From positions 87,038,942 through 87,102,941 of the forward strand of contig JAYGXS010000003.1 of NCBI GenBank assembly GCA_036362985.1: a stretch of 64,000 nucleotides of DNA, in the 5' to 3' direction. Shown piece after piece: positions 1 through 49,360 of the stretch. The notes beneath the pieces were generated by a model that made no database searches, was not told the origin of the DNA, and saw only the letters and a program-made list of their open reading frames with translations. Positions within the stretch are counted from its first letter, which is position 1. Each line of letters begins with the position of its first letter. The position numbers and the translations under genes were made by a program. The stretch comes from Ligula intestinalis (lineage: Eukaryota; Platyhelminthes; Cestoda; Diphyllobothriidea; Diphyllobothriidae).

Positions 1-795
1 CGTACCATCTGTGAGTGCGTTTGTTTGTGTTGTCCAACCAGCTGGTGTTCAGGTTTATGCTCGGCCGATGAAGGCTAATAAGCCCGAAACATTTATGTAT
101 CAAGTAACGGCCCCCGAATGCTGTCATACCCCCTAACTCCCTTTATTACGTGGCCAGAATGCGCCTGGCAGCCGGTCAACCGATGGGGACCTCTGACAAT
201 CACATGAAATTTATTAAGACCGGAAGCTTAATCGGTCGGTGTTCATACATTCCAGAGTTAAAATAAACCCTATCAGCTGTGACAGCAAATTGCTGGTGGC
301 AAGGCGCTGATTAACTGCGGTTCGATGAAGTGCTTATGACCCATCTGATTGGCACCAGCGGAGGACAAACAGCGCAGCCTGTGAGATCGTTTGTTTGTGT
401 TGTCCGACCAGCTGGTGTTCAAGGTTAAGCTTCGCTGATAAAGGCTAATATGTCTGAACATTATCATTATCAAGTAACCCTTCCAACGCCGTCCTTCCCC
501 TTTACTGCTGTTATTACTTGGCTGGAATGCGACTGAGAGGTGGTGAACGTATGGGGACCTCTGACCACCACATGAAATTTGTTAAGATCGGAAGCTTATT
601 CGATCGGAGTTCATCGATTCCTGAGTAAATATAAACCGGAGCAGCAATGATAGAAATTTGCAGCTTGCAAGGTGCTGATGAACTGCGGTTCGATAAAGTG
701 CTCATGAGCCATCTGATAGACGCCAGTGGCGGACCAACAGTGCCGTCTGTGATGTTGTTTGTTTGTGTGGTCCGATCAGCTGGTGTTCAGGGTTT

Positions 796-844
796 TGCTT
801 GGCTGATGAAGGCTTATCAGCTTGAAAAAGTTCTGTATCAAGTA
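796..844 (+). ncRNA. Hammerhead ribozyme, type I (satellite unit)
   Basis: The core CTGATGA is at 803-809 and GAAA at 824-827. Stem I is a 7 bp helix (796-802 with 838-844, two G-T wobbles). Stem II is 5 bp, A810-T823 through T814-A819, including one wobble and with loop TATC. Stem III (A827 to T836) has one A-G mismatch, then A-T and G-C with a TT loop. Predicted cleavage is after A837. This unit has the best stem I in the array. Confidence 0.8.
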
Positions 845-1531
845 ACGGCCCCCCAATGCTGTCATTCACTCTTACTGGTGTTATGAAAAAGCCTGAATAC
901 ACCTGGCAGGCAGTCCCGATGTGGACCCCTGACCACCACATGAACTTTGCTGAGATAGGAAGCTTATTCGATCGGTGTTCGTACATTCCAGAGTGAATAT
1001 AAACCTGAGCAGCAATGACAGCGAATTGCAGTTTGCAAGGTGCTGATGAACTGCTGTTCAAGGAATCGCTCATGACCCATCTGATAGACGACAGTGGCGG
1101 ACCAACAGTGCCATCTGTGAAGGTGTTTCTTTGTGTGGTCCGACCAGCTGGTGTTCAGGGTGATGCTTGGCCGATGAAAGCTTATAAGCCCTAAACAGTT
1201 CTGTATCAAGTAACGGCCCCCCAATGCTGTAATTCACTCTAACTGCTGTTATGACTTGACCGAAATGCGCCTGGCGGGAAGTCACCCGATGGGGACCTCT
1301 GACAACCATATGGACTTTTTTGTTCAGAAGCCTATTCGATCGGTTTTCGCATATTCCTGTTTTAATATATACCCGAATAGCAGTGCCAGCAAATTGCAGG
1401 TTACAATGCGCGGATGCACTGCGGTTCGATGAAGTGCTTATGAACCATCTGATTGTCACCAGCGGTGGACCAAAAGTGCTGTCAGTGAGTGTGTTTTTTT
1501 GTGTAGTACGACCAGCTGGTGTTCAGGGTTA

Positions 1532-1580
1532 TGCTTGGCTGATGATGGCTTATAAGCCCGAAACAGTTCTGTATCAAATA
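1532..1580 (+). ncRNA. Hammerhead ribozyme, type I (satellite unit)
   Basis: The core CTGATGA is at 1539-1545. Stem II is GGCT 1547-1550 with AGCC 1555-1558 (loop TATA). GAAA is at 1560-1563. Stem III is CAG/CTG with a TT loop (1564-1571), closed by A1563-T1572. Predicted self-cleavage falls after A1573. Stem I pairs 1532-1538 with 1574-1580 with one C-A mismatch. All core residues needed in the hammerhead family are present. The position next to stem II (T1546 against C1559) is unpaired. Confidence 0.82.
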
Positions 1581-2269
1581 ACGGCCCGCCAATGCTGTCA
1601 TTCACTCTTACTGCTGTTATTACTTGGCCGAAATGCGCCTGGTAGGTTGTAACCCGTGGATGACCTCTGACCACCACATAAACTTTGTTTAGTTCGGTGG
1701 CCTACTTGATCGGTGTTCGCACATTCCTTTGTGAATATATACCCGACCAGCAGTGGTAGCAAAGGCATGTGGTGAGGCGCTGATTAACTGCGTTTCGATG
1801 AAGTGCTTATGGCCTATCTAATAGACATCAGTGGTGGACCAACGGTACCGTCTGTGAGTGGGTTTGTTTGTGTTGTCCGACCGGCTTGTGTTCAGGGATA
1901 TGCTTGGCTGATGAAGTATAATAAGCCCAAAACAGTTATGTATCAAGTAACCCCAAAATGCTGTCATATTTTCCTTGATGCTATAATGAATTGGCCGCAA
2001 TGGGCCTAGCAGGTAGTCATCCTTTGGAGACCTATGAACAACACATGGATTTTTGTTGATTACCAATTCCTATTATATCTGTAATTGCACATTGCTGAGT
2101 AAATATATCTTGATCAGCAGTGACAGCAAAAAGCAGGTGGCGTGGCGCTGATGAATTGCGGTTCGATTACGTGTTAATGAACCATCTAATAGACACCAGT
2201 GGTGAATCAATCGTGCCGTCCGTGAATGCGTTTTTTTCGTGTTGTCCGACGCGCTGGTGTTAAGGCTTA

Positions 2270-2318
2270 TGCTTGGCTGATGATAGGCTAATAAGCCCGA
2301 AACGGTTCTGTATAAATT
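2270..2318 (+). ncRNA. Hammerhead ribozyme, type I, with one extra base before stem II
   Basis: The core CTGATGA is at 2277-2283, then TA, GGCT 2286-2289, loop AATA, AGCC 2294-2297, C, GAAA 2299-2302. Stem III is CGG/CTG (one G-T pair) with a TT loop and cleavage after A2312. Stem I is weaker because the 3' strand reads TAAAT instead of TCAAG. Core residues are intact; activity is uncertain because of the inserted base and short stem I. Confidence 0.6.
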
Positions 2319-3008
2319 AACCCTCAGACGATGTCATACCCGCCTTACTGCTTTTATGTCTTGGATGGAACTGGCTGGCGGGCGGTCACTCGTAGAGGAC
2401 TTCTGACGGCCACATGAACCTTTTTTTAGTTCGGTGGCCTATTTGATCGGTGTTCGCACATTCCTGCGTGAATATATACCCGATCAGCAGTGACAGCAAA
2501 TGGCATTTGGGAAGGCGCTGATGAACTGCGTTTTGATGAAGTGCTTATGACCCATCTGATAGATACCAGTGGTGGACCAACGGCGCCGTCTGTGAGTGGG
2601 TTTGTTTTTGTTGTTCGACCGGCTGGTTTTTTGGGTAATGCTTGGCTGATGAAGGCTAATAAAACCAATACAGTTATGTATCAAGTTACCCCAAAATTCT
2701 GTCATACCCTCCTTCATGCTATAATGAATTGGCCGGAATTGGCCTTGCAGGCTGTCACCCGATGAAGACCTATGAGCAACACATGAAATTTTGTTTAAAT
2801 CCAGTTCCTATTATATCGGTATTTGCACACTGCTGAGTGAATATATACCCAATCAGCAGTGACAGCAAATTGCTGGTGGCGTGGCGCTGATGAACTGCGT
2901 TTCAATTACGTGCTAATGAACCATATAATAGACACCAGTGGTGAATCAATCGTGCCATCTGTGAATGCTTTTTTTCCTGTTGTCCGACGAGCTGGTGTTA
3001 AGGCTTAT

Positions 3009-3055
3009 GCTTGGCTGATGAAGGCAATAAGTCCGAAACGGTTCTGTATAAATTA
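3009..3055 (+). ncRNA. Hammerhead ribozyme, type I (satellite unit, weak stem II)
   Basis: The core CTGATGA is at 3015-3021 and GAAA at 3035-3038. Stem III is CGG/CTG around a TT loop, with predicted cleavage after A3048. Stem II has lost one base (GGC against GTCC), leaving only 2-3 pairs. Stem I has a mismatch at its second pair. Core residues are intact but folding is doubtful. Confidence 0.5.
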
Positions 3056-4140
3056 ACTCCAGACGATTTCATACCCGCCTGACTGCTTTTATGTCTTGGA
3101 CGGAACTGGCTGGCGGGCGATCACTCGTTGAGGACTTCTGACGGCCACATGAACCTTTTTTTTAGTTCGGTGGCCTACTTGATCGGTGTTCGCACATTCC
3201 TGCGTGAATATATATCCGATCAGCAGTGACAGCAAATGGCATGTGGCAAGGCGCTGATGAACTGCGTTCCGATGAAGTGGTTATGGCCCATCTGATAGAC
3301 ACCAGTGGTGGACCAACGGCGTCGTCTCTGAAAAGGTTTGTTTTTGATGCCTGACCGTCTTGTGTTCAGGGATATGCTTGGTTGATGAAGGCTAATAAGC
3401 CCAAAACAGTAATGTATCAAGTTATACCCAAATGCTGTCATACACTCCCTAATGCTTAAATGAATTGGCCGGTGTGGGCCTGGCATGCGGTCAACTGTTG
3501 GAGACCTATGAGCGCCACATAAACATTTTTTTAGTTCCAGTTCCCAGTATATCTGTTTTTGCACATTCCTGCGTGAATAAATACCCGATCAGCAGTGACT
3601 GCAAATGGCAGGTGGCGTGGCGCTGATGAACTGCGTTTCGATGAAGTGATTATGACCAATCTGATAGACACCAGTGCGGTGCAACTTTTTCTAGTTCGCT
3701 GGCCTACTTGATCGGTGTTCGCACATTCCTGCGCGTTTTTTTGTGTTGTCCGACTGCCTTGTACTCAGGGTTATGTTTGGTTCATGGAGGCTAATTTGCC
3801 CGAAAATTTCTGTATTACTTTACCCATAAATGCAGTCATACCCTCCAGAGTACGAAAATGATTTTCTCGGAGTGGGCCTGGCAGGCGGTCACCCGTTGGC
3901 GACTTATGAACACCGAATGAACTTTGTTAGGTTCGGATGCCTATTTGATCTATGTTCGCACCTTCCTGAGTGAATATATACTCGATCAGCAGAGACAGCA
4001 AATGGCAGATGGCGAGGCGCTGGTGAACTGCGGTTCAGTGTAGTGCTTATGAGCCATCTAAAAGTCACCAGTGGTGGACAAACAGCGCCGCCTGTAAGTG
4101 CGTTAGTTTCTGTTGTCCGACGAGCTGGTGTTAAGGCTTA

Positions 4141-4190
4141 TGCTCTGCTGACGAAGGCTAATAAGCCGAAACAGTTCTCTTTCAATTTAC
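4141..4190 (+). ncRNA. Hammerhead-like motif in the last satellite unit
   Basis: The core is CTGACGA 4148-4154 (position 7 may be any base). Stem II is GGCT/AGCC with loop AATA, followed directly by GAAA 4168-4171. Stem III is weakened by CTC instead of CTG, and the cleavage triplet region reads CTT. It lies at the right edge of the array. It is a recognisable but degraded ribozyme. Confidence 0.45.
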
Positions 4191-4290
4191 CTTTAGACGA
4201 TTTCATCCGTCTTGCTGCTATTATGTCTTGGCCGGAACCTGCGTGGCTGGCGGTCACCCGTTAATGAGCTCTGTCCAGCACATAAACTTT

Positions 4291-5110
4291 GTTTTAAGTT
4301 CCTCAAATATATTCCATCGTCAATATTACGAGTCAGATTTTTCGGCAAACAATTGTTTTTAGCAACTCTTCATCAGACAACACATTTGCAAGGGAAATTA
4401 ACGCTTTACGGAGCAATAAATGTTTGAATGGTAAGAAAAATCAATCATTATCTAATACGGGTGCTAATTGGCAAACGCAGACTATGTCAGTTTGCGCATG
4501 TAGGCCATGTTAGCGTGTTGGTTGAGGGATTGTCGCTTGTTGGTATGGGTGAAATCCTTTCGCCACCTGGTGTCGATTTAGGTCATGGAAGTGACAGAGC
4601 TTGTGTCAGAGTATTCTGACAACACAGCACTGGATTTGCTAGCCTTATAGCTACTGTTTTGGCTGTTGCAAGCATCCGTTGACGAAGGGCTTTGGAAAAT
4701 TAGATGGTTACCTGTAGACCACCTATAGGGTTCGTTAGTATCGTCTCGATGGTTCCGAGTGGCTACTATTACATATTCACCTTTTTGTAAAAAATAACTG
4801 GTTATCATAGAAAAATCTGAATGTCAAGCTATATGTGAATGGAAAATGCTCTTAGCGAAAGTAAAATAAAGATAGATTGCCTTTGTTTACCACCGGTTTG
4901 AACCGAATTATGTATTATAACTTCATTGTGATACTTTGTTTGAATACATTAAATAAGTCCGTAAAATAACCTGTAAATGTATATGTAAAATTGTTTTACT
5001 TAATGCGGTAAAGTTTCTGAAATATTAGGTAAAATGTCACGGTTGCTATCTGTGAACACGCAGAAATTGCATCGAACAATATGCATTCAAATTGCAAGAA
5101 AGATGTGTGG
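4291..5110. other. Unassigned spacer between the HHR satellite and the PLE cluster
   Basis: The satellite homology fades at about 4290. The following sequence is A+T-rich with short open frames on both strands (for example 4428-4619 plus and 4578-4808 minus, the latter Ser/Thr-rich at its end). I recognise no domain, splice-bounded exon or repeat here. Confidence 0.5.
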
Positions 5111-5116
5111 GTGTCA

Positions 5117-5245
5117 GTGTGTTTCCAATTGCGAGGTGTGCTAGCTATTCTGTGCCAAAATCAAAACCATACGGACTACTTGAGAACCTAACGGCAAGCC
5201 TTAATGAAGAAAATGTTTCTAAAAGGCAACGGGATACTTACCGGT
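5117..5245 (+). repeat. Direct repeat block, left copy (partner at 7238-7366)
   Basis: The block starts GTGTTTCCAATTGCGAGG and ends GATACTTACCGGT; it recurs almost base for base at 7238-7366. Both copies stay open in one frame, with shared residues such as KSKPYGL, ENLTASL and QRDTYR, so it may derive from coding sequence of the Penelope-like element beside it. The two copies bracket the minus-strand PLE remnant. It might be part of a PLE pseudo-LTR or a 5' ORF region; I cannot decide between these. Confidence 0.6.
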
Positions 5246-5632
5246 GGGAGACCCAACGACGAACAAAAGGAGTAGGAGAGCATAAAAAAGATGCCCACGG
5301 TGATTGCCATGTTGCGGGCACAATGACACAATATAATCTAGACTGCCCATATATATTGCCTCGTGAGCACGTTGGACGGTGATTAAATGACGCTTCCCTC
5401 CTTTCCAGGAGTTATGTTCCTATGCGCACAATGTTCTTCAAACGCGCGGACTAATCGATAGTGGATCTAGGTTTCTTTCATATATAGAAAAAACGCGGAT
5501 TTAGTTCATTGCATCCTAATAAAAAAACAAAACAACTCGACCATTCATTGAAACTAAGCACTTTTTTCAATTTTCGCAACTACAAATCGTTCTAATAGAC
5601 ATATGTGGACTTAAATAAATGAAGTATAAAAT
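5246..5632. other. Unassigned sequence between direct-repeat block and PLE 3' end
   Basis: No domain or repeat is recognised. It may contain the true 3' terminus of the minus-strand PLE, since that element's reading frame continues to about 5633. Confidence 0.4.
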
Positions 5633-7205
5633 CAACGTCTTCGGTAGAAGCAAACAGTTAATATATACAAAGAACTAATATGCGAAAAAATTCGCGGTCC
5701 AGAGATAATTTTACCTTCATTTTCCCCAGAAGAGGAAGAAGAAGTGGAGGCGATTCCTGGGACCTGGTTATAATGAAGCTGACGTTTCGGAAACTCTCTT
5801 GTCTCCATCGTCAGAGCCATGTCGGTTTCCTGCCGTTTGTCTTGAGAGAATGCGTCCTGTCTTAAGTCGGGTTTCATAACGGTGCCTCTTTCGCGCGTGT
5901 AAATCGATTGGACCGATTGATTGGAGGTGGTTGGTTGAATTTCCCTCTTGCTCGCGGGCGTCTTCACGGGAATGAGTGCCACCTTTTTTAAACGACTCTT
6001 GATAATTGAGACTTTCTTCCTTTGTGGGTTTATGGTCGTTTGCGTCTTTTTCGCCTTTGCGGGCGCGCCCACGAGCAATTGTGCCATGTCGTTTAGGAGA
6101 TCCTTGTTCGTTGACACGTTCCTCCTTTGGGGGCGTCGGCCGTCTGTCCTGTTTGCCTTCTTTTGCCTGGCCTGTTGCCCCGTTTCGGGCGGAGGTGAGC
6201 CCTGCGCGGAGGGCTTGGTAGGCCGGATGAAGGTCCATGGCTCTGTTAAGTGTGCCATTGGAGGACCAAATTTCCAATAGTAATCTGGCCATCTTGTCAT
6301 TGGCATAGCCTACTTTTCTTGCTTTTTCAAAGGCGAAGGCGTCTTTCGCCTGCTGTTAATGCTCATAGCCCATAGACAGTTCATACTTGTATTTGATTGC
6401 GAGCTGATGTTTATGCAATCTTGTGCCCAGGCGCCTGCCCGTTTCACCAACATACCTTGTATTGCAATTTTTGCATGGTAAGCTGTGGACCACTGATGAT
6501 TGTTCTGTCAATGGAAGCGGGTCTTTGGGCTTCATCACTTGCTGTCTGATAGTGGATTCAGGTCTATGGGCCACACCAATCCCAAAAGGTTTAAGGATTC
6601 GTGCAGTCGCCTCTGAAACGTTTTTGATGTAGGGGATTGTGAGCCAAAATTTGGGATCTTCTCCTTTTGACCGCTCAGGGTGCGGCTTCTTGAGGCATCT
6701 GCATAAGAAGGACTTCGGATAACCATTGGCTTGAAATAGTGTTAAAAGTACGCAATCTCCTCCTTCCGCACTTTGTCGGCGCTGCAGTGTGTCTGAACGC
6801 GTTGGAAGAGGGTCCTAACACAAATGCGTTTATGAGCAACGGGGTGCTTGCTTATGAGGTGGAGAATGCGCATCGTGTTAGTTGCCTTGCGGTAGACCGT
6901 TGTCATTATCTTTCCGTTTTCCAACCTTGTCACTTGTACGTCGAGGAAGGCTAACTGACAGTTGGCCTATTCTTCCATAGTGAACTGGATGTCGGGAAAG
7001 ATAGAATTCAACAGCTCCTTAAAAGCCTGCACTTTGCTCCTTTTGATGATAACAAACGTGTCGTCCACGTATGTGGCCCAGAATTTCAGGGGAGATGAGC
7101 TGAAGACCAGTTACTCGAGCCGCTGTAAAACAGCCTCGGCAACAACGCCAGACAGGGGCAAGCCAATTGATGTTCTCTTCTTTGTTCGTAGATCTGGCTA
7201 TTAAA
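5633..7205 (-). pseudogene. Penelope-like element, RT C-terminal half plus GIY-YIG endonuclease, broken
   Basis: Read on the minus strand, 7205 to about 6740 gives RT pieces: a PLSG motif (motif B region), FWATYVDDTFVI (motif C, YVDD codons at 7060-7071), then FPDIQFTMEE and TTVYRKA. Between 6574 and 6356 comes the linker and GIY-YIG start (SLPCKNC, YVGETGRRLGTR). From 6340 to 5768 follow FAFEKARK, MARLLLEIWSS, LNRAMDLHPAYQA and a long basic C-terminus. The order RT then GIY-YIG defines Penelope-like retroelements. There are frameshifts in the RT part and a TAA stop inside GIY-YIG, right after MGYEH (near 6356). The 5' part of RT is missing. A second copy lies inverted at 7367-8335 and a longer relative at 30.4 kb. 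It is not functional as read. Confidence 0.85.
5774..5820 (-). ncRNA. Hammerhead ribozyme of the PLE, minimal stem III
   Basis: On the minus strand: CTGACGA at 5814-5808, T, then a 6 bp stem II (GGAGAC with GTTTCC, loop GAGAGA), GAAA, then CGTC ending at 5781. Stem I is GGCT 5' of the core with AGCT 3' of the cleavage site (3 Watson-Crick pairs and a wobble). Stem III is just ACGU, a palindrome with no loop; such minimal HHRs are known from PLEs and are thought to work as dimers. The motif overlaps the end of the PLE reading frame. Confidence 0.75.
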
Positions 7206-7237
7206 CGTAAAGAAAGATTAAGACACAGTTCCAGTTC

Positions 7238-7366
7238 CAGTGTTTCCAATTGCGAGGTTAACTAGCTCTTGTGTGCCAAAATCAAAACCATACGGACTAC
7301 GCGAGAACCTAACGGCAAGCCTTACTGAAGAATTTTTTTCTAAAATGCAACGGGATACTTACCGGT
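7238..7366 (+). repeat. Direct repeat block, right copy (partner at 5117-5245)
   Basis: It is the same block as at 5117-5245, starting GTGTTTCCAATTGCGAGG. It joins the plus-strand PLE fragment at CTTACAG followed by CAAGTGATGAAGCC. In the minus-strand PLE copy the same CAAGTGATGAAG is preceded by different sequence ending in CAG, so this is a junction between two unrelated pieces. An abrupt join is expected from template switching or from a spliced RNA. Confidence 0.6.
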
Positions 7367-7800
7367 ACTTACAGCAAGTGATGAAGCCGAAAGACCCGCT
7401 TCCATTGACAGAACAATCGTCAGTGATCTACAGCTTACCATGCCAAAATTGCAATGCAAGGTATGTTGGTGAAACGGGCAGGCGCCTGGGCACAAGATTG
7501 CATGAACATCAGCTCGCAATCAAATACAATTATGAACTGTCTATGGGCTATGAGCATTAACAGCAGGAGAAAGACGCCTTCGCCTTTGAAAAAGCAAGAA
7601 AAGTAGGCCGAGCCAATGACAAGATGGCAAGATTACTATTGGAAATTTGGTCCTCCAATAGCACACTTAACAGAGCCATGGACCTTCATCCGGCCTACCA
7701 AGCCCTCCGCGCAGGGCTCACCTCCGCCCGAAACGGGGCAACAGGCCAGGCAAAAGAAGGCAAACAGGACAGACGGCCGACGCCCCCAAAGGAGGCGGTT

Positions 7801-7893
7801 AGGATGACGACATCCTCCATTTTTCGTATTTTTAGTAGCTGAAGAACGAGAACTCCTAAAAATACGAAAAATTGAGGATATCGTCATCCTACC
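7801..7893. repeat. Foldback: 35 bp inverted repeat inside the chimeric PLE
   Basis: The left arm, about 7801-7836 (starts AGGATGACGACATCC), is nearly the exact reverse complement of the right arm, about 7858-7893 (ends ATATCGTCATCCT). About 20 bp separate them. The right arm is genuine PLE RT coding sequence (KIRKIEDIVIL); the left arm is its inverted copy. Snap-back self-priming of a cDNA during target-primed reverse transcription would make this. Confidence 0.8.
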
Positions 7894-8200
7894 CACCGAT
7901 AAAGGACGCACAACGGTCGTCATGGATAAGGTGGATTATAAAACAAAAGTTAACAACCTTTTGATGGACAAGAAATCCTATACACCGTCGACTGCCACCG
8001 AGTTCAAAAGGCTCAATTATCAAAAGTCCTGTAAAAAAGTTGGCACTCATTCCCGTGAAGGCGCCCGTGAGGAAGAGTGAAATTCAAACAACCACCTCCA
8101 TTCGATCGGTCCAATCGATTTACACGCGCGTAAGAAGCACCGTTATGAAACCTGACTTAAGACAGGACGCATTCTCTCAAGAGAAGCGGCAGGAAACCGA

Positions 8201-8247
8201 CATGGCTCTGACGATGGAGACGAGAGAGTTTCCGAAACGTCAGCTTA
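8201..8247 (+). ncRNA. Hammerhead ribozyme of the PLE, minimal stem III
   Basis: The core CTGACGA is at 8208-8214, T8215, stem II 8216-8221 with 8228-8233 (6 bp, loop GAGAGA), GAAA 8234-8237, CGTC 8238-8241, predicted cleavage after C8241. Stem I is GGCT 8204-8207 with AGCT 8242-8245. It is the same design as the copy at 5774-5820 and oriented away from it. Confidence 0.78.
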
Positions 8248-8382
8248 ATTATAACCAGGTCCCAGGAATCGCCTCCACTTCTTCTTCCCCCTCTGGGGAA
8301 AATGAAGGTGAAATACAAAGAACTGAATGTTAATCATGTGATAAATAATGCTGAAGTTAAATGAGCATCAATATTGTGTCGC

Positions 8383-15909: not shown

Positions 15910-16215
15910 AAGAGGAAATCCTGCTTGGGCAGTCAACTTGCTCCCGTATTGGTGGATTCCATATGAGCGAAAAATTGAGCAAGTACTATCTAACCAAGTG
16001 TGATTAAACTCATAGCGTGAAGCTGGCGTTTGTAGCTTAGCGGTAGAGCATAAGCATCCTCCAAAGGCTTTCTCACATGAGCTGGTTCAAATCCCGCCAA
16101 ATGCCTAGAGTTTTTCACACTTGGGTCAGCTTTAATGAGGCAAATCTGCCAAACCAACTTAATGAGAGGAGGAGTTTTTCCCTTCCGCAGCTGGTGAAAT
16201 AAGACTGATTTTGAA
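15910..16215 (+). mobile_element. SINE with tRNA-related head, copy 1
   Basis: An RNA polymerase III promoter is visible: A box TAGCTTAGCGG at 16033-16043 and B box GGTTCAAATCC at 16084-16094. The flanks GGCGTTT (16025-16031) and AAATGCC (16099-16105) would pair as a tRNA acceptor stem, but the anticodon arm does not fold properly. Homology to 27960-28215 covers both the tRNA-like part and about 100 bp on either side (ACATATGAG-type block, AAGTGTGATTAAA, GCAAATCTGCCAAACC). A third, shortened copy is at 38428-38597. So this is a repeat family, not a tRNA gene. Confidence 0.75.
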
Positions 16216-27959: not shown

Positions 27960-28215
27960 TGATCAGTCACCTTGCTGGTCCGTTTCAGTGGATTACATAT
28001 GAGGCGTAAAGTTGGGCGGCTAATAGTGACCAAAGTGTGATTAAATGTAATGGCACGAGGCAGCGCGTTTGCAGTTTAGTGGTTATAGCGCTGCCTACCG
28101 GTAAAGGTCTTCTCTGATACGCGGTTTCAAATTTTAGCTGAGCGCCTCGAGTTTTTTTTTCACAATTCGGTCAGCTGCTTAAAGCAAATCTGCCAAACCC
28201 TGTAATAACTAGGTT
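27960..28215 (+). mobile_element. SINE with tRNA-related head, copy 2
   Basis: It is homologous to the copy at 15910 across its full length: AAGTGTGATTAAA, then GTTTGCAGTTTAGTGG (A box), GCGGTTTCAAATTTT (B box, degenerated), CGAGTTTTTTTTTCACA, GCAAATCTGCCAAACC. The T run after the tRNA-like part could act as a Pol III terminator. The B box is mutated from GGTTCAAATCC, so it is probably inactive. Confidence 0.7.
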
Positions 28216-30399: not shown

Positions 30400-31970
30400 C
30401 GACAAACTAAGAAAGGCAGGAGCCCTCACGAGAAGGAAGGCGCTAACTGCAAAGGCATCTGATACTGCGATGGCACGTTTCTACGGCCTACCAAAGGTGC
30501 ACAAGCCAGGGGTGCCCTTACGTCCCATCGCATCTTTAAGAGGCACTCCAACCTTTGGATTGTCGAAGTGACTTTACCAGCGATTGAGTTTCCTCACAAA
30601 GAATTCAGAATGGGCATTTAGGTCTGCTCAAGAGTTTTTGACCCGCATCCAACACCTGGAAGTGGAGGCAGACGAGGTGATGGTCTCGTTCGATGTGGTC
30701 GCATTGTTCACCTCCATTCCACCCGATCTGGCTATGGACACCATCGACGGCCTCCTCCGCGAAAAATATGAGGAGACCGAACAAAAACTGAAGCGGGTGC
30801 ATATCATAGAGCTCCTGGAACTGTGTCTTCAAACTTACTTAACATTCAACAACCAGGTTTACCAGCAAAAAAATGGCACTCCGATGGGCTCGCCTCTGTC
30901 TGGGCTAATTGCCCAAGCTGTTTTGCAGAGGCTAGAGCAGGTTGTTTTTAAATCCCATCCCCAAAAATTCTGGGCCAGATATGTTGACGACACTTTTGCC
31001 ATAATCAACAGGAGCGAAGTGCCGACCTTCAAGACACTACTAAATTCCATTTTCCCGGACATATAGTTCACAATGGAAGAGGAGGTCGATAATAAGTTGC
31101 CCTTCCTCGACATTTTAGTCAAAAGGCTGACGGATGGGAAGATAAGGACGACGGTGTACCGTAAGGCCTCCTTCATTTCAGAAGTAACCACCCCGTCGGT
31201 CAAAAACGCAGTTGCGTCAGGACTCTCTTCTAGCGCGCTCAAACACACTGCAGTGACTACGATGGGAGGAAAGAAGAGAGGAAGTACCTACATGCCCTAT
31301 TCGAGGCTAACGGTTACCCAAAGTCCTTCGTACACAGGTGTCTCAGGAAGTGCCGCTCTGAGATGTCGACCGAAGAGAAACCGAAGTTCTGGCTGTCAAT
31401 TCCCTATGTGAAGAATGTCTCAAAGGCGACTGCAAGACTGCTGAAACCGTTCGGGATTGGCGTGGCTCACAAACCGGCATTAACTATCAGACAACGGGTT
31501 ATGATGCCTTAAGATCCGCTACCAGTGACCGAACAATCAGCGGTGGTCTACAGCATCCCTTGTCAATATTGTGATGCGCAGTATGTCGGTGAAACTGGCA
31601 GACGTCTTGGCACGAGGTTTCATGAACACAAGCTCGCAATCGACCGCGAAGACGAGCATTCTATGGTTTACGGCTACGTGAAGCGGCGCAAACACGTTTT
31701 CGCCTTTGAAAAGGCAAGGGTGATCGGCAGGGCCAGTGACAAAATGGCTAGACTAGTGCTCGAAAGCTGGTCGTCGACTGGCACACTCAACAGAGCCATT
31801 GAGTTGAATCCTGCCTACCAAGCCATCCGCGCAAGGCTCACGCCAGCACAAAACAGGACACTAAGGCGGGAGAGTGGCAACACAATGAGTGAAATCGGCA
31901 TCCGGCGCGGGTCACATGACCGGCGTGGGTTGGGTTCTCACGAGAGCAACTATGAGACCGCGAACTAGGG
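30400..31970 (+). pseudogene. Penelope-like element, RT + GIY-YIG, nearly complete but broken
   Basis: Plus-strand order: [20 protein letters not shown] (RT start, 30480), SK-TGA-LYQRL (TGA at 30569-30571 in place of Trp), VMVSFDVVALFTSIPPDLAM (motif A, about 30675), NGTPMGSPLSGLIAQAVLQR (motif B, about 30868), FWARYVDDTFAIIN (motif C, about 30970), FPDI-TAG-FTMEEE (31064-31066, in place of Gln), VYRKASF, a frameshift near 31170, KPKFWLSIPYVKNVSKATAR, then VVYSIPCQYC, YVGETGRRLGTRFHEH (GIY-YIG, about 31545), FAFEKARVIG and MARLVLESWSSTGTLNRAIE (catalytic Glu and Asn region), stop near 31967. RT followed by GIY-YIG is the defining layout of Penelope-like elements. The N-terminal DKGR segment is missing, so the copy is 5'-truncated. 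Two stops and at least one frameshift make it non-functional. Confidence 0.9.
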
Positions 31971-32172
31971 GGAAAACGACGCAGGCGCACACGAGGACGT
32001 GAACGCGGGGGAGTCAGAGTCGGAGGGACAGGCCGACGCAGCGCCGAGAACAGTGGAGAGGAGGACGCCAATCAATAATCAATGGACGTATGAGCGCACG
32101 GGCATCACACATGGGCACAACACCCGGCTCGAGGCAAGACACATTAATTCAAGGCCGGCGGAAGAGTAGGCA

Positions 32173-32218
32173 GCACGCTCTGATGATGAAAACGAGCATG
32201 TTTTTGAAACGTCAGCAA
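32173..32218 (+). ncRNA. Hammerhead ribozyme at the PLE 3' end
   Basis: The core CTGATGA is at 32180-32186, T, then stem II GAAAAC with GTTTTT (6 pairs including one wobble, loop GAGCAT), GAAA 32206-32209, CGTC 32210-32213. Stem I is GCT (32177-32179) with AGC (32214-32216). Stem III is the loopless ACGU. It lies ~210 bp past the PLE stop codon and ~60 bp before a conserved 3' block (IISGPRIF-like) that is shared with the PLE at 5.7 kb. All core residues are intact. Confidence 0.78.
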
Positions 32219-32435
32219 GAATAAAATTTGGTCCTAGCACTTGCCCCCTCTTCTTCTTCCTCTTCCGGGGATGATGAGCACGATATTATATCTGGACCCC
32301 GAATATTCGCGCATATTACGTTTTACAAATCCGCGTAGCCTCGAATCACAACGTTTGATGGACTCGACGCTTGCAATTATTGTTATTGTTAACTCACATA
32401 TTACTGAAAATAACAAGTAACATGTCAATATGCAT

Positions 32436-32485: not shown

Positions 32486-32865
32486 TTAGTGGGCATTTCG
32501 GGTATGAAAATCTAAATTTCTCTTGAATGCATCCACATATGGGGGCATAACAAAATCCTCGGGGAGAGCATTCCAAGGGTCAACTACTATATTACCAAAA
32601 AAGAACTTGCGTGTGTCTAGTTTGGCCCATGTTATGCGTAGTGCGACGAGATGCCCTCTTAAGTTTGTCGTCGTTGCTAACTCGAAGAAGTCGCCAGGTA
32701 GAAGACAACAGTCCTGCCCGCGCATTATACGAAATGTTTGTATCAGATCGCCACGTTGCTGTCTGTAACTTAACAGAAATAGATCGCGATTAGCTAAACG
32801 TCTTTCATAGGGTAAAAAGCTCTGACCGGTAACCAGTTTGGTCGCGCGTCTTTGGAACTTCTCAA
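32486..32865 (-). pseudogene. LINE (CR1-like) ORF2 C-terminus, separate copy
   Basis: Minus-strand blocks: FQRRATKLVTGQSFLPYERR, LFLLSYRQQRGDLIQTFRIM, LLPGDFFELATTTNLRGHLV, LDTRKFFFGNIVVDPWNALP, VDAFKRNLDFHTRNAH-stop. This is the full CR1-like C-terminal pattern. It follows, in the same orientation, the 3' end of the longer LINE (32872-37845), but repeats the same protein region, so it is a second insertion, not a continuation. Confidence 0.8.
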
Positions 32866-33337
32866 GGGATAATGTCTTTTTCTATGCGGATCCAACTGCA
32901 ACTTAAACGTGTGCACATGAGAATGTATGCGGGTATAGCATTCCATGCCTGGATTACCTTGTTAGCGAAGAAGAATTTGTGTGTTCATAATCTTGCCACA
33001 GTCACACGTAGCTTGAGATGGTGTCCACGCAATATATTAGTAAAGGCAAGCTGAAAGAAATCGCTGGATGCTAGGCAACATTTTTGATCCCGTAGCATGC
33101 GAAATGCCTGTATCAGGTCACCGCGCAGCTGTCTGTTATCCAGAGGAAATAAGTCAAGATAGGTCTGTCGTGTTTCGCACTTACTTAGTTGCTCGCCGTT
33201 GTACACTTTCAATGGTTTTTTTCTTTGACCATCAAAGGTTTCCACGCTTGAATGGCAAATTCCAGTAGGGGTTGCACAAACGCGCCGAAGAACATGCCAA
33301 GGACAACTTTGTCAACCTTAACAAAGGCACGCTTGCT

Positions 33338-37060: not shown

Positions 37061-37504
37061 ACCAGTACACAGTTGTCACGGCGCAGATACTGGGCACTGG
37101 GCAACTTGTTGTTCCTCTCGAATCTTTATTCGTGCGGTTTTGTTGATTATAGCCATGGATAAGGGTGAGATCGATTCTGCGGCTGGACGTTTCATCCGCC
37201 TTTTGGAAACTTTAACGGTCCTGGGGCTCAAGCTTGCCTGACACTGTACACTCTGGCACGTTTGTGTATGCTTTTCCTCCGATTTGGGCGTGTCTGGACC
37301 TATTAGATGTTGGCTGCTAGTAAGCGCCCTTAATGATGATAAAAGCTGTGGATTGCAACTTGTTTCGACAATTGGCCTTAGCTTGTCGAGTTTATTCAGT
37401 TCTGCAAGTATTTCTGATAGTTGGTTCGTAAGACACTCTAGTCCTATTACATTTTGCTGCATCTCTTTGCAGTGATTATGATTCTCTGGACATATTGCGT
37501 CGCC

Positions 37505-37725
37505 AGTGTTAGTGCACGTAACTGCCGGTGGCCCTCGCATCTCAGCTGCTGTAGCCGAGGTGTTTTAATGGCCGCCCCCTGGGTCGCCCGTCCGCGGTTC
37601 GATGCTAACTCCAGTGTTAGTGCATGTAACTTCCGGCTGCCCTCGCAGCCGAGTTGCGGTGGCCGAGGTGTATAGGCGGTCGCCCCCTGAGGCAAGCGTG
37701 CGCGGATCGATGCCACCTCTACATT
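37505..37725 (-). repeat. Two-copy 108 bp tandem repeat in LINE ORF1
   Basis: GTTAGTGCA at 37508 and 37616 starts two copies with shared CCCTCGCA, CCGAGGTGT and GCCCCCTG blocks. 108 bp is 36 codons; the protein repeat is CEGxRxLxALTLE. Confidence 0.7.
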
Positions 37726-38597: not shown

Positions 38598-40304
38598 GCT
38601 AACACTGCACGGGACAAAGGCAAGTTTTGTTTGCAATTACTGTGGAGGAGGGGTCTTAGTAAAGGTAGCCATTCGAAAAATGTTAAGCCTACGATGATGA
38701 CAGAAGTCTTGGGAAAGCCAAAGCAGTAGAAACAATAGATTGCTTACAGAAGAGTTAGGGGAAAATTAGCCATTTAGTCTTGCATGTCGTTCAATCGTGA
38801 GAGCGCGACGCCGTCCCAAGTGTCCGTAAGTGCAGTAATTGATTGAGGACCGCAGTGCGCTTTGGGAAGCCGATTGGCCATGATAGCTTCGGTACCCTGC
38901 TAGGCCAGACCTTTCTCGAGTGCATGTATGCGTCCGAGCCGCCCGAGGGCAAAGATTGCGCCTAGCGCGCGTACAGGAACTGAGCAGGTCGAGCAAATGG
39001 GTCAAGCGCGAATGGAAGACGAAGATTGTTCTTCCCATATCACATCTGTGGCGTCAAGCATTTAAAAGAGGTGAGCTATCAAATCGTTACAGCCTGCTGC
39101 CTTAATACTCATGGATGCGAGCTTAAACGTAATTTCACCCGGTGAGCTTGAAAATCGTGTTCGCTTCGAATTTAAATGACACTTCATTCCGTTCAGGACC
39201 TCAGACTGTATCTGCTTGATGATTTCGTTTTCCTGATTTTGAGCGGCGTGCACAGCTGCATTTGACGCATTTTGTGGTCAGTTACATTTCACTTCTGTAG
39301 ACATTTCGAGCAAAACATTTACCTTCTTTTTATTCCACGGGATATATATAGGCTAAGTTTTCACCTCATGTGGAGGGGAAGCGGTCATATTAAGTCTAGC
39401 ATATCGTCTAAATCCCCCTCGGGGCGCAAGCTGAACCGTGGTCTCAGGTAGATGAATGAAAATAAGTCTTCGTCCTGAGGGTGCGATAAGACTGGTCTCA
39501 AGGCGTAGGGTTTTCATCATCTGCATATCTATCATTTCCGTTTTTTTCAAAATCAACGAAAGCGCTTCATATATAAATATATCGGTCATAGGAACGATAC
39601 TGGGAAACGAGCTACAGTGTGTTGCTTTCAAATAACGTACACTGTTGGCTTTGTGCTTCATTTTTTTGTCACGAGGTTGAGTACTGGAGTTCCCGCAGGA
39701 AAGTTACACGACATTTGAATTTTAAGTAAGTTGATTTTCGAAATTAAGATCTTTTGTGTATATCCATTGGACACATATAAAATTACAGTTGTTTGTTATC
39801 GATATTTAAGCAATGACCATTAAGGACCTTGGTGAAGGTTATACTTAAGTATGTTAAATTATTGCTGTCGCAAACGAGATTAGGAGTTTGTTTGAAGTGG
39901 AAAAAACTGACGGTAAAACGTACGATACAAACGAAATATATGTACATTTTTAAACTGAGTTGAAACATCAGAATGAGAAAAGGTGCAATTTTTATTCAAT
40001 AATAATTTTGACAATAATACACGGCATGTAAAATTAAAGACAATTTGGTTTTTTTTAAAAAGGAACAGCTTATCTATAATTTGCGACAGTCAGGCTACTA
40101 AGTCTAATTCACGCGGTTGTATGGGCCCTAATGGTCACACAGTGCGCAGGTCAATTAAAGAACTTATAATTAAGCGATGTGCGCAAAAACATGTTCCGGG
40201 TGATTGTCGTTGTCATCCACGAATGAGAAAAAAAGCATTAATTAATTAATTATCAAGGAAGTTTGTACTAAATAGTATGAAATGTCAAATTCTATTATTT
40301 GCAG
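38598..40304. other. Unassigned; probable intron upstream of FN3 exon 1
   Basis: From 38664 to 38710 the string CAGAAGTCTTGGGAAAGCC weakly resembles a part of the insertion at 48045-48330 (GAGAAGTCTTGGGAAGGC). The CpG-rich frame at 38766-39038 (minus) has no domain. The remainder is A+T-rich and ends in a pyrimidine-rich tract and the acceptor of the first FN3 exon. Confidence 0.45.
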
Positions 40305-40601
40305 CCGGCCAACAGGTCACAGCTGTACAACTTCCGCACATCGGTACGGACACTGTCACGTTAACATGGACGGCCCCGGAACAAGCGCACGGTGATATCA
40401 TATCCTACCACGTCAGAGTTACGAACAGGGATACAAAGGAGGAGCAGGAGTTAGAAACAACGTCCAACGGAATAACATTTTCCAATTTGACTCCGCACAC
40501 ATTTTACGACATAACAGTCAGGACTGAAAACAAGCAGCTTACTAGCAATGGTGGCGGCCTCGGTGACCCCGTACTGATAATAGTTTCGACAGAACCATTG
40601 G
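40305..40601 (+). CDS. Fibronectin type III exon, type A, copy 1 (A1)
   Basis: One exon of 297 bp (99 codons) that encodes a whole FN3 domain. Acceptor TTATTTGCAG ends at 40304; donor G|GTAAGAGT starts at 40602; both boundaries are phase 1. Domain landmarks: AGQQVTAVQLPHIGTDTVTL, the core Trp in TWTAP, HGDIISYHVRV (strand C with Tyr), LTPHTFYDITVRTEN (the L-P-T-Y signature), GGGLGDPVLI and STEPLG. FN3 domains are ~90-100 residue beta sandwiches that build extracellular parts of adhesion proteins and receptors. Symmetric 1-1 phase lets the exon be duplicated or skipped without frameshift. The type A exons at 44.9, 47.7 and 50.3 kb have the same length. The host protein (receptor phosphatase, tenascin-like or secreted multi-FN3 protein) cannot be told from these exons. 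Confidence 0.88.
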
Positions 40602-42180
40602 GTAAGAGTTGTAATATATTCTGCTATCTTCGGGCATTGGTAAACCATCTGCTTAAAGCCAGTTTTTTTGGAAGACAAAGCATTTGCTAATACTGCGAAC
40701 GCAAAAATTTCTGACGGTTGTCTTCCGAAGAGTGCTCGAAAACGCAACAGCTATGCTGACGTCTGGTGCTCGTGTAAAACCGACCAGTTTTTTGTATGAG
40801 GGAACCTCTTATATAGTTTGATTCCCAAAGTCCAGAGTATGTCAACAGGGGAGTTGAGAATATGGTTGTCTGTGAGCTGCTCACTACGCAATGTCCGTGA
40901 TTCCCCTTGATATAGCAATTGTATTGTGCAATCCTTCAGTGGGATATAACTTACGATGTGCATTCGCTCACGTTTGTTTTAAAGGAAAAAGAGCGCTCTC
41001 AATATTTACACAGTTTTTACGATTGTGGCTCTTTGCAGATCAAAGTGGTGGTCAGTCTCTGCATATACAGGGACCAACATTGTATATTAAGCTTAAAACA
41101 GTCCACCACTGCGTAACAGACGCAAATGGCCAAAATGCCCACTGTACTTGTTTAAATCGAGGCTGAAAATTAGCAAATCCTATTTACTAAGAAAAAGCCC
41201 TAGACGGCTGTTTGGTCAGTATTCGGCCAGTGCTTGACACAGCTGCGAGAGGTCTGCTTCATTTGTGTGTTCCCAGATTCCTCTGTATGCTTTCTGTTTA
41301 ATATAGCCAGTTTGTTTTGATTTGCTATGTTATCATTCCATGGTATTACCCAAACATGAAACTCAGGTGCAACAGTAACAATGTGCAATGAACTCAAGTT
41401 TATTTACGCTGAGATGAGAAATAATAAGAAAAGTAGTTTTAATCGGCAATACGATAGTTTTACCTACCTCTTCGACCACCACATACAGATGCTGACCAAT
41501 GAGTAGTGGTTAAACAGATGACAAGGAAGTATAATACACTATACTTTCTAAAGATTGCAAAATTAAGACTGTCGGGTTTAGAATCAGCAATCATTTTCGT
41601 TCACAGGAATGTGTAAAAGAATCGGTTAGCCCATGGTGAATACTTGCAGTCTCAATTTAAATGTCTGATGGATGCAATCAGTTTCGGAATATCAGCGAAA
41701 ATAGCCAAGTCCGGTGGAAAAAAAGAATACAATTTATATGCAAGGAAATTGCAGCATGTTTCCACGTACTTGGCTGATAATGGCAAATTACGTCCTTCGC
41801 GTGCAATCCGAACCCCAGTTGAACTTATTGTGTGTTTCCAGCCTTTGAATGCAAAGCCTTTCTCTGAGGTTTTTTCTTCGGCCAATGATCACTTGCTTCC
41901 TTCGCCAGTGGTATTTAACAATTCCAAGAGGGATTCCATGAGGGCTCTTCCAAAGGCCCTTATGTATTTAAGCCACCTACTTAAATCTCTTAAGCAGGTC
42001 GAATTGCCAAACATCTTGATGTTTTTAACACGCCACCCGTCAGTCCAGCAGGGATTGGATAATGGCATTGAGCTGCAGAATGGCCCACTTAATGTCAGCA
42101 CATACAAAAACCACTAACGTCAGTATACTGAAAGAAATAAACAGTTAAAGTTAATGATGGAAATAGCTGCTTACCTTTAA
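40602..42180 (+). repeat. Duplicated intron segment ('tail') after exon A1
   Basis: Sequence after each A exon is shared: GTAAGAGTTGTAATATATTC, ATCTTCGGGCATTGG, AAGACAAAGCATTTGC, CGTTTGTT... to CAGCTGCG-GAGGTCTG and GGGATTCCATGAGGGCTCTT. Counterparts are 45224-46537, 47993-48770 and 50628-52200. The open frame 41644-42117 in this copy is disrupted in the others, so I regard it as non-coding intron sequence. Confidence 0.75.
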
Positions 42181-42335
42181 ATATTAAGTAGGGTGAATCC
42201 AACACATCCCACTGTTGTATTGCGTAACTCTTTTTTTGGTGTTGATGTTTCGACTATAAAATGTACGTCAATGACCTCGCCAGAAAATAAAAGCCCATTT
42301 AAGTGTCTTCTCCCAAGGTTTGACTGCCCTACTTT
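42181..42335. other. Intron sequence unique to this module
   Basis: Short stretch between the duplicated tail and the LINE-3'-UTR-like repeat; a near match to 52260-52380 (AGGGTGAATTCAACTGCG) shows it once belonged to the tail. Confidence 0.5.
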
Positions 42336-42560
42336 TGCATGTGTGCAGTGGTAGCAGAATAATTGTGTCTCAGACTGGTGGCGGGTCCACGTGTCTTGAG
42401 TTATGGGATGCAAAAATTAGGGGCAGACAGTGAAAAAACTCCTAAAGGATTTTTAGGTGAAAAATTGTTGCTCTTGTGGGGACATGTGTGGCGTTTAATA
42501 GGGAAAGGAGAAAATAAATCATCCAATTTTTTTTCTGTGGGGGGAAACTTACAAGGGGCA
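42336..42560 (-). repeat. LINE 3'-UTR-like repeat in FN3 intron
   Basis: GGGGCAGACAGTGAAAAAAC and GGATTTTTAGG-GAAAA blocks match the LINE 3' UTR copies at 29226 and 29703. It is present only in the A1-B1 intron, so it arrived after, or was lost from, the other modules. 42561-43380 beyond it has nothing recognised besides AT microsatellites. Confidence 0.5.
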
Positions 42561-43504
42561 TGGCAAACGTTCACAGGATCATCACTGATTGTGAAATCTG
42601 ATCAGCCTTATTCTTCCTTGCTGAGTACACTTTCCGCCGACCGGACTGGAAAAAAGTAACATCCGTCCAGATCGTCGACATTTCGCTGCGGGTCAAACAA
42701 AGGGTGACTGTTTAGGCAGCCAAGTCCGGCTGATGTGATCGCTGACGGGGTTATCACGATATGCAGATAGCCAAATACGGTAGACCGCGGAGCTCTTAAT
42801 ATGCACCATTTGGTGGAAGGGCGTTTAAAATAGCATCTATATATATATACTTGTTTCCAACGAGCAAAAGGTAGTGTGTCAAGATCAACACACTTGACTT
42901 ACGTACAAAGCCGGATACTCACAAAATTTGTTCCCTGAACAAACCGTACTACAGTATTCCTCTCCTTAATCGCCACCTGGGTAAAAATCCATCTGCTCGC
43001 ACAGCAACGTTGTGACTAGCAAAGCAGACAATCGTCAAAAATCTTCCTAAACGAGATCGGACCAACCAAACTCCTACAACGCTGGTGCTGGTGAAATGCT
43101 CAGACGCTAGCATACACAAAGGAGCAAATGCTGAGTCGCTTAATTATATCGTATCACATTTGCTTTGATATCAGTATTGAAGTTACTTACTGCATAGTTA
43201 AACATTAAACTAGCTCAGTTATTACGCCTGCTTTTCCCAACCCTGAACAAAGTTTCCACGTTTAGACATTGCTTTATTAGTTCGTCAAAGTTCTGCTTCT
43301 TAAATTCTAAAACCAATCGTCTTAAGTAAGGAGAATCACCTTTAACGTATTCTTACATTATATATATATATATATATAAAGTGTAAGCAGTAGAAATGGG
43401 TAAAAGTACGCTGTTAGACACGCTGTTTTTAATGATCGCTCGGAAAACCTGATGCTATAAACAACAAATAATAATTAAACATTTAAAGTAGTTATATTAT
43501 TGGA

Positions 43505-43800
43505 AATTTTCGTCGGCATTCACCTCGGGGTATATGGTGCACTACTGTATCGATCCAATTTTCGCTTGAAAACCTCTAGGGAATCCAAAATAGGGACATC
43601 CCGAAAAAGCGTTTGCGACGACTTAACCACCTTTTTTGAAAAGAAATGCTTCCGAGAGCCCAGCCTTAGCCCAGTCACCCTTACTTTGAGAGAATGACCC
43701 GTCAATTTTAATAGTGTTGCTAATCCGAAGAAATCTCCTGATTTAGGAAAACATTCCCAAAGACCTCGAACGCAGAATTTCAGTATCAGTTTTCCTGTGG
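43505..43800 (-). pseudogene. LINE (CR1-like) C-terminal fragment in intron before exon B1
   Basis: Minus strand: TGHSLKVRVTGLRLGSRKHF, FSKKVVKSSQTLFRDVP, DSLEVFKRKLDRYSSAPYTP. This follows the RGHxxKL...RxxFFSxRVxxxWNxLP...FKxxLD pattern of CR1-like LINE ORF2 ends. The same fragment, at the same place relative to the exon, is found before B2 at 48918-49200. Confidence 0.7.
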
Positions 43801-43947
43801 AGCAACCAAGATCACAGTGAAAAGTAGTAGCGTATGATATGATCTATTGATACGTACTTTATTTTAATAGAATAAATATCTTTATAAATTTAATTATTTT
43901 ATCCTTTTTATTAAATCGGGCCAATGTACACATCCTTTCATTCACAG

Positions 43948-44250
43948 CTGGTCAAAAAGTACGTGATATAAGATTTCCTGATATCGGTAGTTACTCAATC
44001 AATGTTCAATGGAGGGCCCCGGAAATGCCGTATGGTGAAATAACATCCTACCGCGTTGAAACTACGGACGCAGAAGGAACTATGAAGACAGAAAGAGACG
44101 TGTATGAGACTGAAGCAACAATATGTAATTTGAGTCCATTCACGACGTACAACATATCAGTCCGGACAATAAACAAACTGAGTTCTCCTAGGAACTATTA
44201 CGGCGGAGTCGGTGAAGCCGTCACAAATGCTGTAACTACACTACCACTGG
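43948..44250 (+). CDS. Fibronectin type III exon, type B, copy 1 (B1)
   Basis: 303 bp (101 codons), phase 1 at both ends: acceptor CATTCACAG to 43947, donor GTAAATATT from 44251. FN3 landmarks: DIRFPDIGSYSINVQWRAPE (core Trp), PYGEITSYRVETTDAEGT, ICNLSPFTTYNISVRTINK (L-P-T-Y signature with an NIS glycosylation sequon), YYGGVGEAVTNAVTTLPLG. Its twin B2 at 49361 differs at three residues in the aligned part, so the duplication is recent or the exon is conserved. Type B is clearly distinct from type A. Confidence 0.88.
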
Positions 44251-44926
44251 GTAAATATTCGCACTTTGTTTAAATGCATTCCTTATGTATCGGTTAACGT
44301 ACTGCCTGGTGCCAATTGAAATTGTTTTACAAAAATATGTATTATTTGTACTTTCTCCAGACATATACGTTATTCACCACTGTCTTGAGGAGAGTGCCCG
44401 AGAACGCCCAAACAATTCACTGGTCCAGCGCTCAGGTTAAACTAGACCGCATGAATATTGGAGGAATTAATTAGGTTATTTGATCCATTTAAGTGAGGCA
44501 TTATGAGATCTGCCGATTGCTCAAATCATTTGGTCTCCCCACTGAACAGGCTATTATATTAGACAAAGCACGCCCGGAAAAATTTTCGGGATAGCAGGTT
44601 TGAGGTTCATAGTTGAGCGACGCCTGTATTTATTCACTTCTTTTAAATCTTCTTATCATCCAGGATTGCGATTATACCGACTGTTAATTTGCCATATTTG
44701 CGGTTAACCATAGACTTAATTTTCACCGGTCAGAAGCCAATACGCAGTCTATATAAGAAGTTCCCTTGACGAACTATGTGAGTGACATGTACAGTGCTGC
44801 AGCTGGATTCAGTTGACAGTTGGCAGGGCGTAAGAACTTGATGTTTGTGCCATAGGCTGAACCTCGCGTCGTTTTGCTTCAACACACATACTTGCTTCTA
44901 TTAACCGTCTAAATCTTTTATTCGAG

Positions 44927-47992: not shown

Positions 47993-48044
47993 GTAAGAGT
48001 TGTAATATATTCTGCTATCTTCGGGCATTGGTTAACCTATAGGA

Positions 48045-49200: not shown

Positions 49201-49360
49201 AGGTTTCCTGTGGAGCAACCAAGATCACAGTGAAAAGTAATAGCGTATGATATGATCTACTGATTTGTATTTTACTTTGATAGAATAAATATCCTTATAT
49301 ATTTAATTATTTTATCATTTTTATTAAATCGGGCCAATGTACACATCCTTTCATTCGCAG

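Follow-up and report, generated by a model that had tools for sequence, protein, structure and literature searches.

Metazoan non-long-terminal-repeat (non-LTR) retrozymes are small tandem repeats with type I hammerhead ribozymes that contain less than 50% guanine plus cytosine (GC), occur as multimers and share their genomes with Penelope-like elements (PLEs) (Cervera and de la Pena 2020, PMC7229834; this and the following statements on published systems refer to the accessible parts of the papers cited). Their target-site duplications, when present, are longer than 4 bp, and platyhelminths are named, in one sentence, among the phyla with retrozyme-like repeats (PMC7229834). Satellites with active hammerheads are already known from Schistosoma (PMC8490949, PMC6155905), and mobilization of retrozymes by PLEs is a published idea (PMC7761336). 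Here, we analyzed a stretch of 64,000 nucleotides (nt) from the tapeworm Ligula intestinalis (assembly GCA_036362985.1, contig JAYGXS010000003.1, positions 87,038,942 to 87,102,941 of the forward strand). This stretch, hereafter called the window, begins with a tandem satellite of 368 bp that carries a hammerhead-like segment in its units. We consider it probable that this satellite represents the decayed remains of a non-LTR retrozyme. An initial annotation of the window had gone further and proposed a type I hammerhead ribozyme in every unit.

The 368-bp satellite and its hammerhead-like segments

The satellite array occupies positions 1-4294 (+) and comprises 11 complete units flanked on either side by a partial one, the left of which is cut by the window edge. 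Tandem Repeats Finder (TRF) called a period of 368 over positions 8-3676, with 10 copies and 75% matches, and the array was stretched to 1-~4294 by unit alignment and nhmmer, which confirmed the tandem satellite of ~368 bp described initially. Cut at the predicted ribozyme sites, nine units measure 368-370 bp, one 367 bp and one, a chimera, 398 bp. Unit alignment and nhmmer place in this chimeric unit (3417-3814, +) an extra piece at 3683-3733 that matches unit positions 106-156. In the unit alignment, the array units are 65-89% alike in pairwise comparison; mean identity to the majority consensus is 84.5% for the 11 array units and one dispersed unit (see below). The same alignment revealed a higher-order repeat, a duplicated 736-bp dimer at 1943-3416 (+), with 88% likeness between units 1943-2312 and 2681-3048 and 89% between units 2313-2680 and 3049-3416. 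Since a block of two units was duplicated, the array grew by segment duplication. Eleven full units of 368 bp fit the ~150-450 bp tandem repeats of metazoan non-LTR retrozymes, and the GC content of the array (0.472 for 1-2000, 0.459 for 2001-4000) lies below the 50% bound of these elements. Four stop-to-stop frames of 122-150 amino acids are found inside the array, and 368 is not a multiple of 3. A protein-database search with two of these four frames (both antisense, searched together) returned no homologue, a result that does not show absence. Exact-pattern scans for the satellite motif in viral and prokaryotic contigs and in plasmids gave no match.

Boxes in hammerhead order were present in all 12 array segments, with predicted cuts after positions 99, 469, 837, 1205, 1573, 1942, 2312, 2680, 3048, 3416, 3814 and 4181. 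All core residues (CUGANGA, GAAA and UH) are kept in five of them (cuts 837, 1573, 2312, 3048 and 4181), as initially annotated. The best segment (1529-1585, +) combines an intact core with stems I-III, has a predicted cut after A1573 and U.C at positions 10.1/11.1, and was recovered by the descriptors described below, by comparison of core residues and by the Rfam model HH9 (15.1 bits, E 0.21). A second one (793-849, +; predicted cut after A837) was found by descriptor and also has an intact core, with A-U at 10.1-11.1 and 3 of 4 pairs in helix III; no Rfam hammerhead model matched it. Comparison of cores and stems showed that the remaining three intact cores are accompanied by a stem I mismatch and one extra base beside stem II (2267-2320, +), by a stem I mismatch (3005-3056, +), or by broken stems I and III (4138-4190, +; core CUGACGA, also included in the energy comparison). 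The segment at 56-111 (+), with a predicted cut after A99, carries the core change U4C and matched HH9 with 16.6 bits.

We then applied a descriptor that required an exact core together with pairing at four of five positions in stem II, three in helix III and four in stem I. Core and stems passed in two of the 12 array segments (797-837 and 1533-1573). A second, similar descriptor, which tolerates no mismatch in the 3 pairs of helix III, was passed by one of the 12 in the window, the segment at 1539. The full set of type I features (CUGANGA, GAAA, A15.1-U16.1, H17, stems I-III and an open stem I) is present in two of the 12, and the stems are weak in three others. Thus, the initial proposal of a hammerhead in every unit holds for the ordered boxes, but a working-looking ribozyme with core and stems is present in only two of the 12. 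With an exact core, the first descriptor found no match in 40 simulated 64-kb windows; when one core mismatch was allowed, it gave 0.7 matches per simulated window and also matched one of the two dispersed segments. The second descriptor gave 23 matches in 200 Mb of simulated sequence, which amounts, with both strands counted, to about 8e-5 per 367-nt unit, a figure limited by the fact that both descriptors were composed post hoc, after the motif had been seen.

Outside the array, blastn, nhmmer and position-by-position comparison identified a dispersed satellite copy of ~1.5 units (46535-47103, -), both hammerhead segments of which carry G5A. It sits 42 kb from the array in opposite orientation. 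At the 3' side, the copy runs 7 to about 19 nt beyond the predicted cut (46554), and at the 5' side it ends between 47103 and 47124. The two overlapping parts of this copy are 83% alike, and each is 76-82% alike to array units. Since they are scarcely closer to each other than to the array, the dispersed copy is old as well. We also considered its ends as a record of cleavage: blastn placed the end 6-7 nt past the cut, but the comparison suggests homology to about +19, and the ends are therefore no evidence for a ribozyme. No further satellite-unit matches were found in the window (blastn at E 1e-3; nhmmer none better than E 0.77).

Evidence for and against a ribozyme past

Most ribozyme segments of the satellite have lost core residues, and this is one of several observations that weigh against a ribozyme past. 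The core is damaged in seven of the 12 array segments, with 1-3 changes each (e.g. G12A, G8A, C3U, G5C), and in both dispersed segments, the range over array and dispersed copies being one to four changes. The G10.1-C11.1 pair beside the hammerhead core is near-universal; in the satellite, only three of 14 copies have a standard pair there (A-U) and the other 11 have none, a point that the initial annotation had passed over. This departure may reflect either decay or a lineage trait. Furthermore, conservation in the core columns does not significantly exceed that of other columns (p 0.18; p 0.24 in a second test). Four intact cores were counted among 12 aligned rows, where 1.9 were expected (p 0.14); with a row misaligned at G12 included, the count is five (p 0.06). 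Circular folds of the 12 units were no better than those of 60 shuffles each, with z values of -1.9 to +1.6 in sense and -2.4 to +0.5 in antisense orientation; a highly self-paired unit RNA, which is a trait of metazoan retrozymes, was not found. Finally, no target-site duplication beyond chance was detected at the dispersed copy, where the longest word shared by the flanks has 5 bases.

Covariance models point in the same direction. No Rfam hammerhead family reached its gathering threshold anywhere in the window, so that the search by which the initial annotation had wished its ribozymes to be checked yielded only weak matches to Hammerhead_HH9 (RF02275) in two units, against a cut-off of 52 bits. 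One is located at 49-122 (16.6 bits, E 3.2; one of three weak matches when 1-5400 was searched at a relaxed threshold). The other, at 1523-1596 (15.1 bits, E 0.21), is in the predicted register and was the sole match among 4227 families in 1500-1620. A relaxed scan of 760-880, around the segment with the cut after A837, gave no match to the hammerhead clan; since Rfam output gives the best clan match only, lower-scoring matches to further hammerhead models would not be visible. Matches to a C/D small nucleolar RNA, a microRNA and a small RNA in 760-880 and two non-hammerhead matches in 1-5400 were far below cut-off and were taken as chance.

The folding results raise the question of whether the satellite is an ordinary non-coding one, in which an imperfect hairpin contains hammerhead-like boxes by accident and a ribozyme never worked. 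Over the 14 copies, the hammerhead structure is paired in 79.1% of cells, compared to 20-47% for slid versions of it. Covariation, however, does not exceed that of shuffles, as 55 to 120 of 500 column shuffles reach the five measures. A rival hairpin, formed by AUGC..GGCUG with CAGUU..GUAU around the GGCU/AGCC stem, is paired in 84.4% of cells. Of the 14 copies, 11 favor this hairpin in predicted stability, two (cuts 469 and 3416) favor the hammerhead and one is a tie. In the best copy, the values are -11.5 kcal/mol for the hairpin and -4.2 for the hammerhead, or -2.7 with all three stems forced. This comparison permitted only the pairs of each structure, and its energy model ignores the non-canonical core and loop-loop contacts; a harsher variant that forces every hammerhead pair, isolated ones included, made the hammerhead worse in all 14 copies, and we used the fairer figure of 11. 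Separate folding of six segments returned the hammerhead as minimum-energy fold in none of them, and RNAalifold did not return it either. Together with the damaged and not significantly more conserved cores and the weak or absent Rfam scores, these data speak for an accidental hairpin. On the other hand, core boxes with this spacing, the three stems and an NUH triplet would be expected to coincide only at the rate of about 8e-5 per unit given above, and tandem hammerhead repeats of such size are common in animals (PMC7229834). The rival hairpin also shows no double-sided pair change, whereas the hammerhead has four, though slid versions show 2-4 and two of them equal that number. Moreover, the minimum-energy fold is hammerhead-shaped in one of the 14 copies (cut 3416), which itself has two core changes. 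Overall, we regard an accidental origin as unlikely, although it retains an appreciable chance.

A currently active retrozyme, with the array being transcribed and giving rise to 368-nt circles, can be judged by the same data. Two units do keep core and stems. But the units have drifted to the 84.5% mean identity given above, most ribozyme segments are damaged and the predicted folds mostly disfavor the hammerhead, which makes present activity extremely improbable.

The most conserved part of the satellite unit is not the ribozyme segment but positions 200-256 (e.g. about 1406-1461), with p 0.017 for a 56-column window and p 0.05, 0.15 and 0.03 for windows of 20, 40 and 80. This block includes a second CTGATGA (unit position 204) and the motif GGTTCGA, which we take to resemble a box B of RNA polymerase III; no ungapped box A was seen by eye near it. 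We rejected the second CTGATGA as part of a second hammerhead: by inspection, stem II and helix III fail to form, and its local alignment with the first comprises 9 bases at a score that is reached by 4% of shuffles.

Penelope-like elements and other features of the window

Hammerhead-bearing PLEs, which accompany metazoan retrozymes, are present in the window. Searches with tapeworm PLE proteins (tblastn) and with a second PLE (blastn) identified an element at 5700-7234 (-), the coding part of which is split over several frames. A partial copy at 7371-8314 (+) was found by blastn to be 93-97% identical to it. The locus at 5700-8314 combines a PLE with an inverted, incomplete duplicate of the element's 3' part, an arrangement found in Penelope elements. 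The second PLE (30572-32318, +) encodes a reverse transcriptase (RVT_1) and a region like tapeworm proteins named for GIY-YIG, as judged by Pfam and protein searches, and comparison of PLE sequence by tblastn and blastn pointed to a PLE remnant at 20899-19766. The frame at 31513-31968 gave 28 protein matches (48-78% identical), 25 of which are named; all of these 25 come from Sparganum, Spirometra, Schistocephalus or Dibothriocephalus. Of these genera, Sparganum belongs to Diphyllobothriidea, and the other three presumably do as well, so that the PLE proteins point to a diphyllobothriidean tapeworm as the likely host. Penelope elements are reported to fill about 10% of two diphyllobothriidean genomes, and the paper on the S. 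proliferum genome gives about 10% Penelope together with expanded fibronectin type III families (PMC8166898).

A motif scan revealed four PLE-type minimal hammerhead motifs. Three lie within PLE sequence: on the 3' side of the coding matches of the first PLE (5767-5825, -; motif at 5814), in its inverted copy (8197-8255, +; motif at 8208) and 3' of the coding matches of the second PLE (32169-32227, +; motif at 32180). The fourth (54135-54193, +; motif at 54146) stands alone; it reads CTGAAGA..GAAACGTC and has a stem I of 5 bp. All four share the form CUGANGA..GAAACGUC, a core without a real helix III that had no match in 200 Mb of simulated sequence. The free core position N7 is C, C, U and A in the motifs at 5814, 8208, 32180 and 54146, respectively. 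Three of the four are predicted to fold into a non-hammerhead hairpin and the fourth into another fold. No Rfam match was obtained for 54100-54220 around the lone motif, and 53600-54700 had neither a blastn match elsewhere in the window nor a PLE protein match.

These elements could also mean that the hammerhead segment of the satellite is a relic of a PLE pseudo-LTR, the satellite being a tandemly amplified PLE tail that was never a circle-borne retrozyme. PLE sequence with hammerheads does occur 1.4 kb from the array end and elsewhere in the window, and both ribozyme families are non-standard at 10.1/11.1. Such an origin is nevertheless very unlikely, given that the PLEs of the window lack a match to the satellite unit in the blastn and nhmmer searches described above, and that the cleavage triplets (GUA in the satellite, GUC in the PLEs), stem II and helix III all differ.

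Several other features of the window were noted. Look-alike frames of the fibronectin type III kind are spread over 40250-50722 (+), and the dispersed satellite copy lies between them. Some are near-duplicates, e.g. 43851-44273 and 49264-49686; Pfam confirmed the domain in the one frame tested (49264-49686), and a protein search with a frame of this kind gave no homologue at threshold. A sequence resembling tRNA-Gly (TCC) at 16025-16106 (+) may belong to a tRNA-derived repeat, given a likeness of 69% between 15996-16155 and part of 28033-28199. TRF also reported two tandem copies of a 108-bp repeat at 37503-37713. The frames 32486-32881 (-) and 60607-60969 (-) presumably resemble C-terminal ends of non-LTR reverse transcriptases; neither had a Pfam match.

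A probable fading retrozyme and its relatives

Tandem repeats of 368 bp that are low in GC and carry a type I hammerhead-like segment fit, together with the dispersed multimer and the PLEs with hammerheads in the same 64 kb, the published non-LTR retrozymes (PMC7229834). In this respect the initial interpretation as a type I retrozyme finds partial support. It falls short in that only five of the 12 cores are complete, two of the 12 have stems as well and no Rfam match reaches threshold, and in that excess RNA structure and significant extra conservation of the core are lacking. We therefore favor decayed retrozyme remains. In the working cycle published for retrozymes (PMC7229834, PMC7761336), a tandem array of the ancestral element would have been transcribed by read-through, and each hammerhead would have cleaved itself after the GUA triplet, releasing 368-nt RNAs that would have been ligated to circles. 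The circles would have been copied past one unit length into complementary DNA, probably by a PLE reverse transcriptase, and the multimers inserted elsewhere; the 1.5-unit copy at 46.5-47.1 kb would be a trace of such an insertion. Minimal hammerhead motifs within the PLE sequence of this window are what PLE-driven mobilization, as published, leads one to expect (PMC7761336). The hammerhead satellite likely spread once with the help of PLEs and is now growing by tandem duplication. Our model further suggests that its cleavage would likely have been easier as a dimer than as a monomer, because helix III is short (3-4 pairs) and the strand forming it in the best copy (ACAGUUCUGU) is nearly self-complementary. 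Dimer cleavage has been reported for newts and proposed for PLEs.

If this interpretation is correct, hammerhead satellites of the retrozyme kind extend to diphyllobothriidean tapeworms, the element and its presumed PLE helper are found together in one 64-kb stretch, and we see a late stage of such an element, in which the satellite outlives the ribozyme and spreads by tandem duplication. A bolder proposal is that tapeworms have a hammerhead lineage of their own, in which a mismatch or an additional base takes the place of the 10.1-11.1 pair, common to PLE ribozymes and a PLE-mobilized 368-bp satellite retrozyme; the latter would then be a parasite element that borrowed enzyme and ribozyme style alike from its helper. 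We consider this quite unlikely.

In the literature searched, where most subscription journals and supplements fell outside reach, we found no cestode hammerhead satellite, and the word 'ribozyme' is absent from the main texts of two tapeworm papers (PMC12274263, PMC8166898). The element had initially been called new should its family be undescribed in the host lineage. As far as the searches show, this is true for tapeworms, but not for platyhelminths at large. Since platyhelminths are already named (PMC7229834) and hammerhead satellites of Schistosoma are known, the lineage is new only at the tapeworm level.

Among described systems, the Schistosoma elements Sm-alpha (W36.2) and W (PMC8490949; Ferbeyre 1998 cited therein) are likewise flatworm satellite-like type I hammerhead repeats with core-mutated copies, and a very short stem III is common to the candidates tested in Schistosoma (PMC8490949) and the satellite described here. 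Compared by description, our satellite differs in its cestode host and 368-bp unit, and activity has been shown for some schistosome copies. The pDo500 satellite of Dolichopoda cave crickets (PMC2837043), again compared by description, is also hammerhead satellite DNA but belongs to another phylum. Minimal type I hammerheads of PLEs (Cervera and de la Pena 2014 and Lunse 2017, both as cited in other papers) have counterparts in the window in the three motifs in PLE sequence and the lone one, from which the satellite segment differs by its GUA triplet and by the greater length of helix III and stem I. Hammerhead_HH9, the only Rfam hammerhead family reported as matching, has the same stem order and, following stem I, a UAC/UAAC strand similar to that of the satellite. 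In contrast to the satellite, its consensus has G-C at 10.1-11.1, and the scores of 15-17 bits stand against its cut-off of 52. Metazoan non-LTR retrozymes (PMC7229834) differ from our satellite, which is known from its sequence alone, in that most cores are broken here and neither excess RNA structure nor a target-site duplication was seen. They agree with it in the small tandem type I hammerhead repeats, the GC content below 50%, the multimers and the PLEs in the same genome. Rather than a new kind of system, the satellite is thus probably an old relative of the retrozymes known from animals, and one that is fading.

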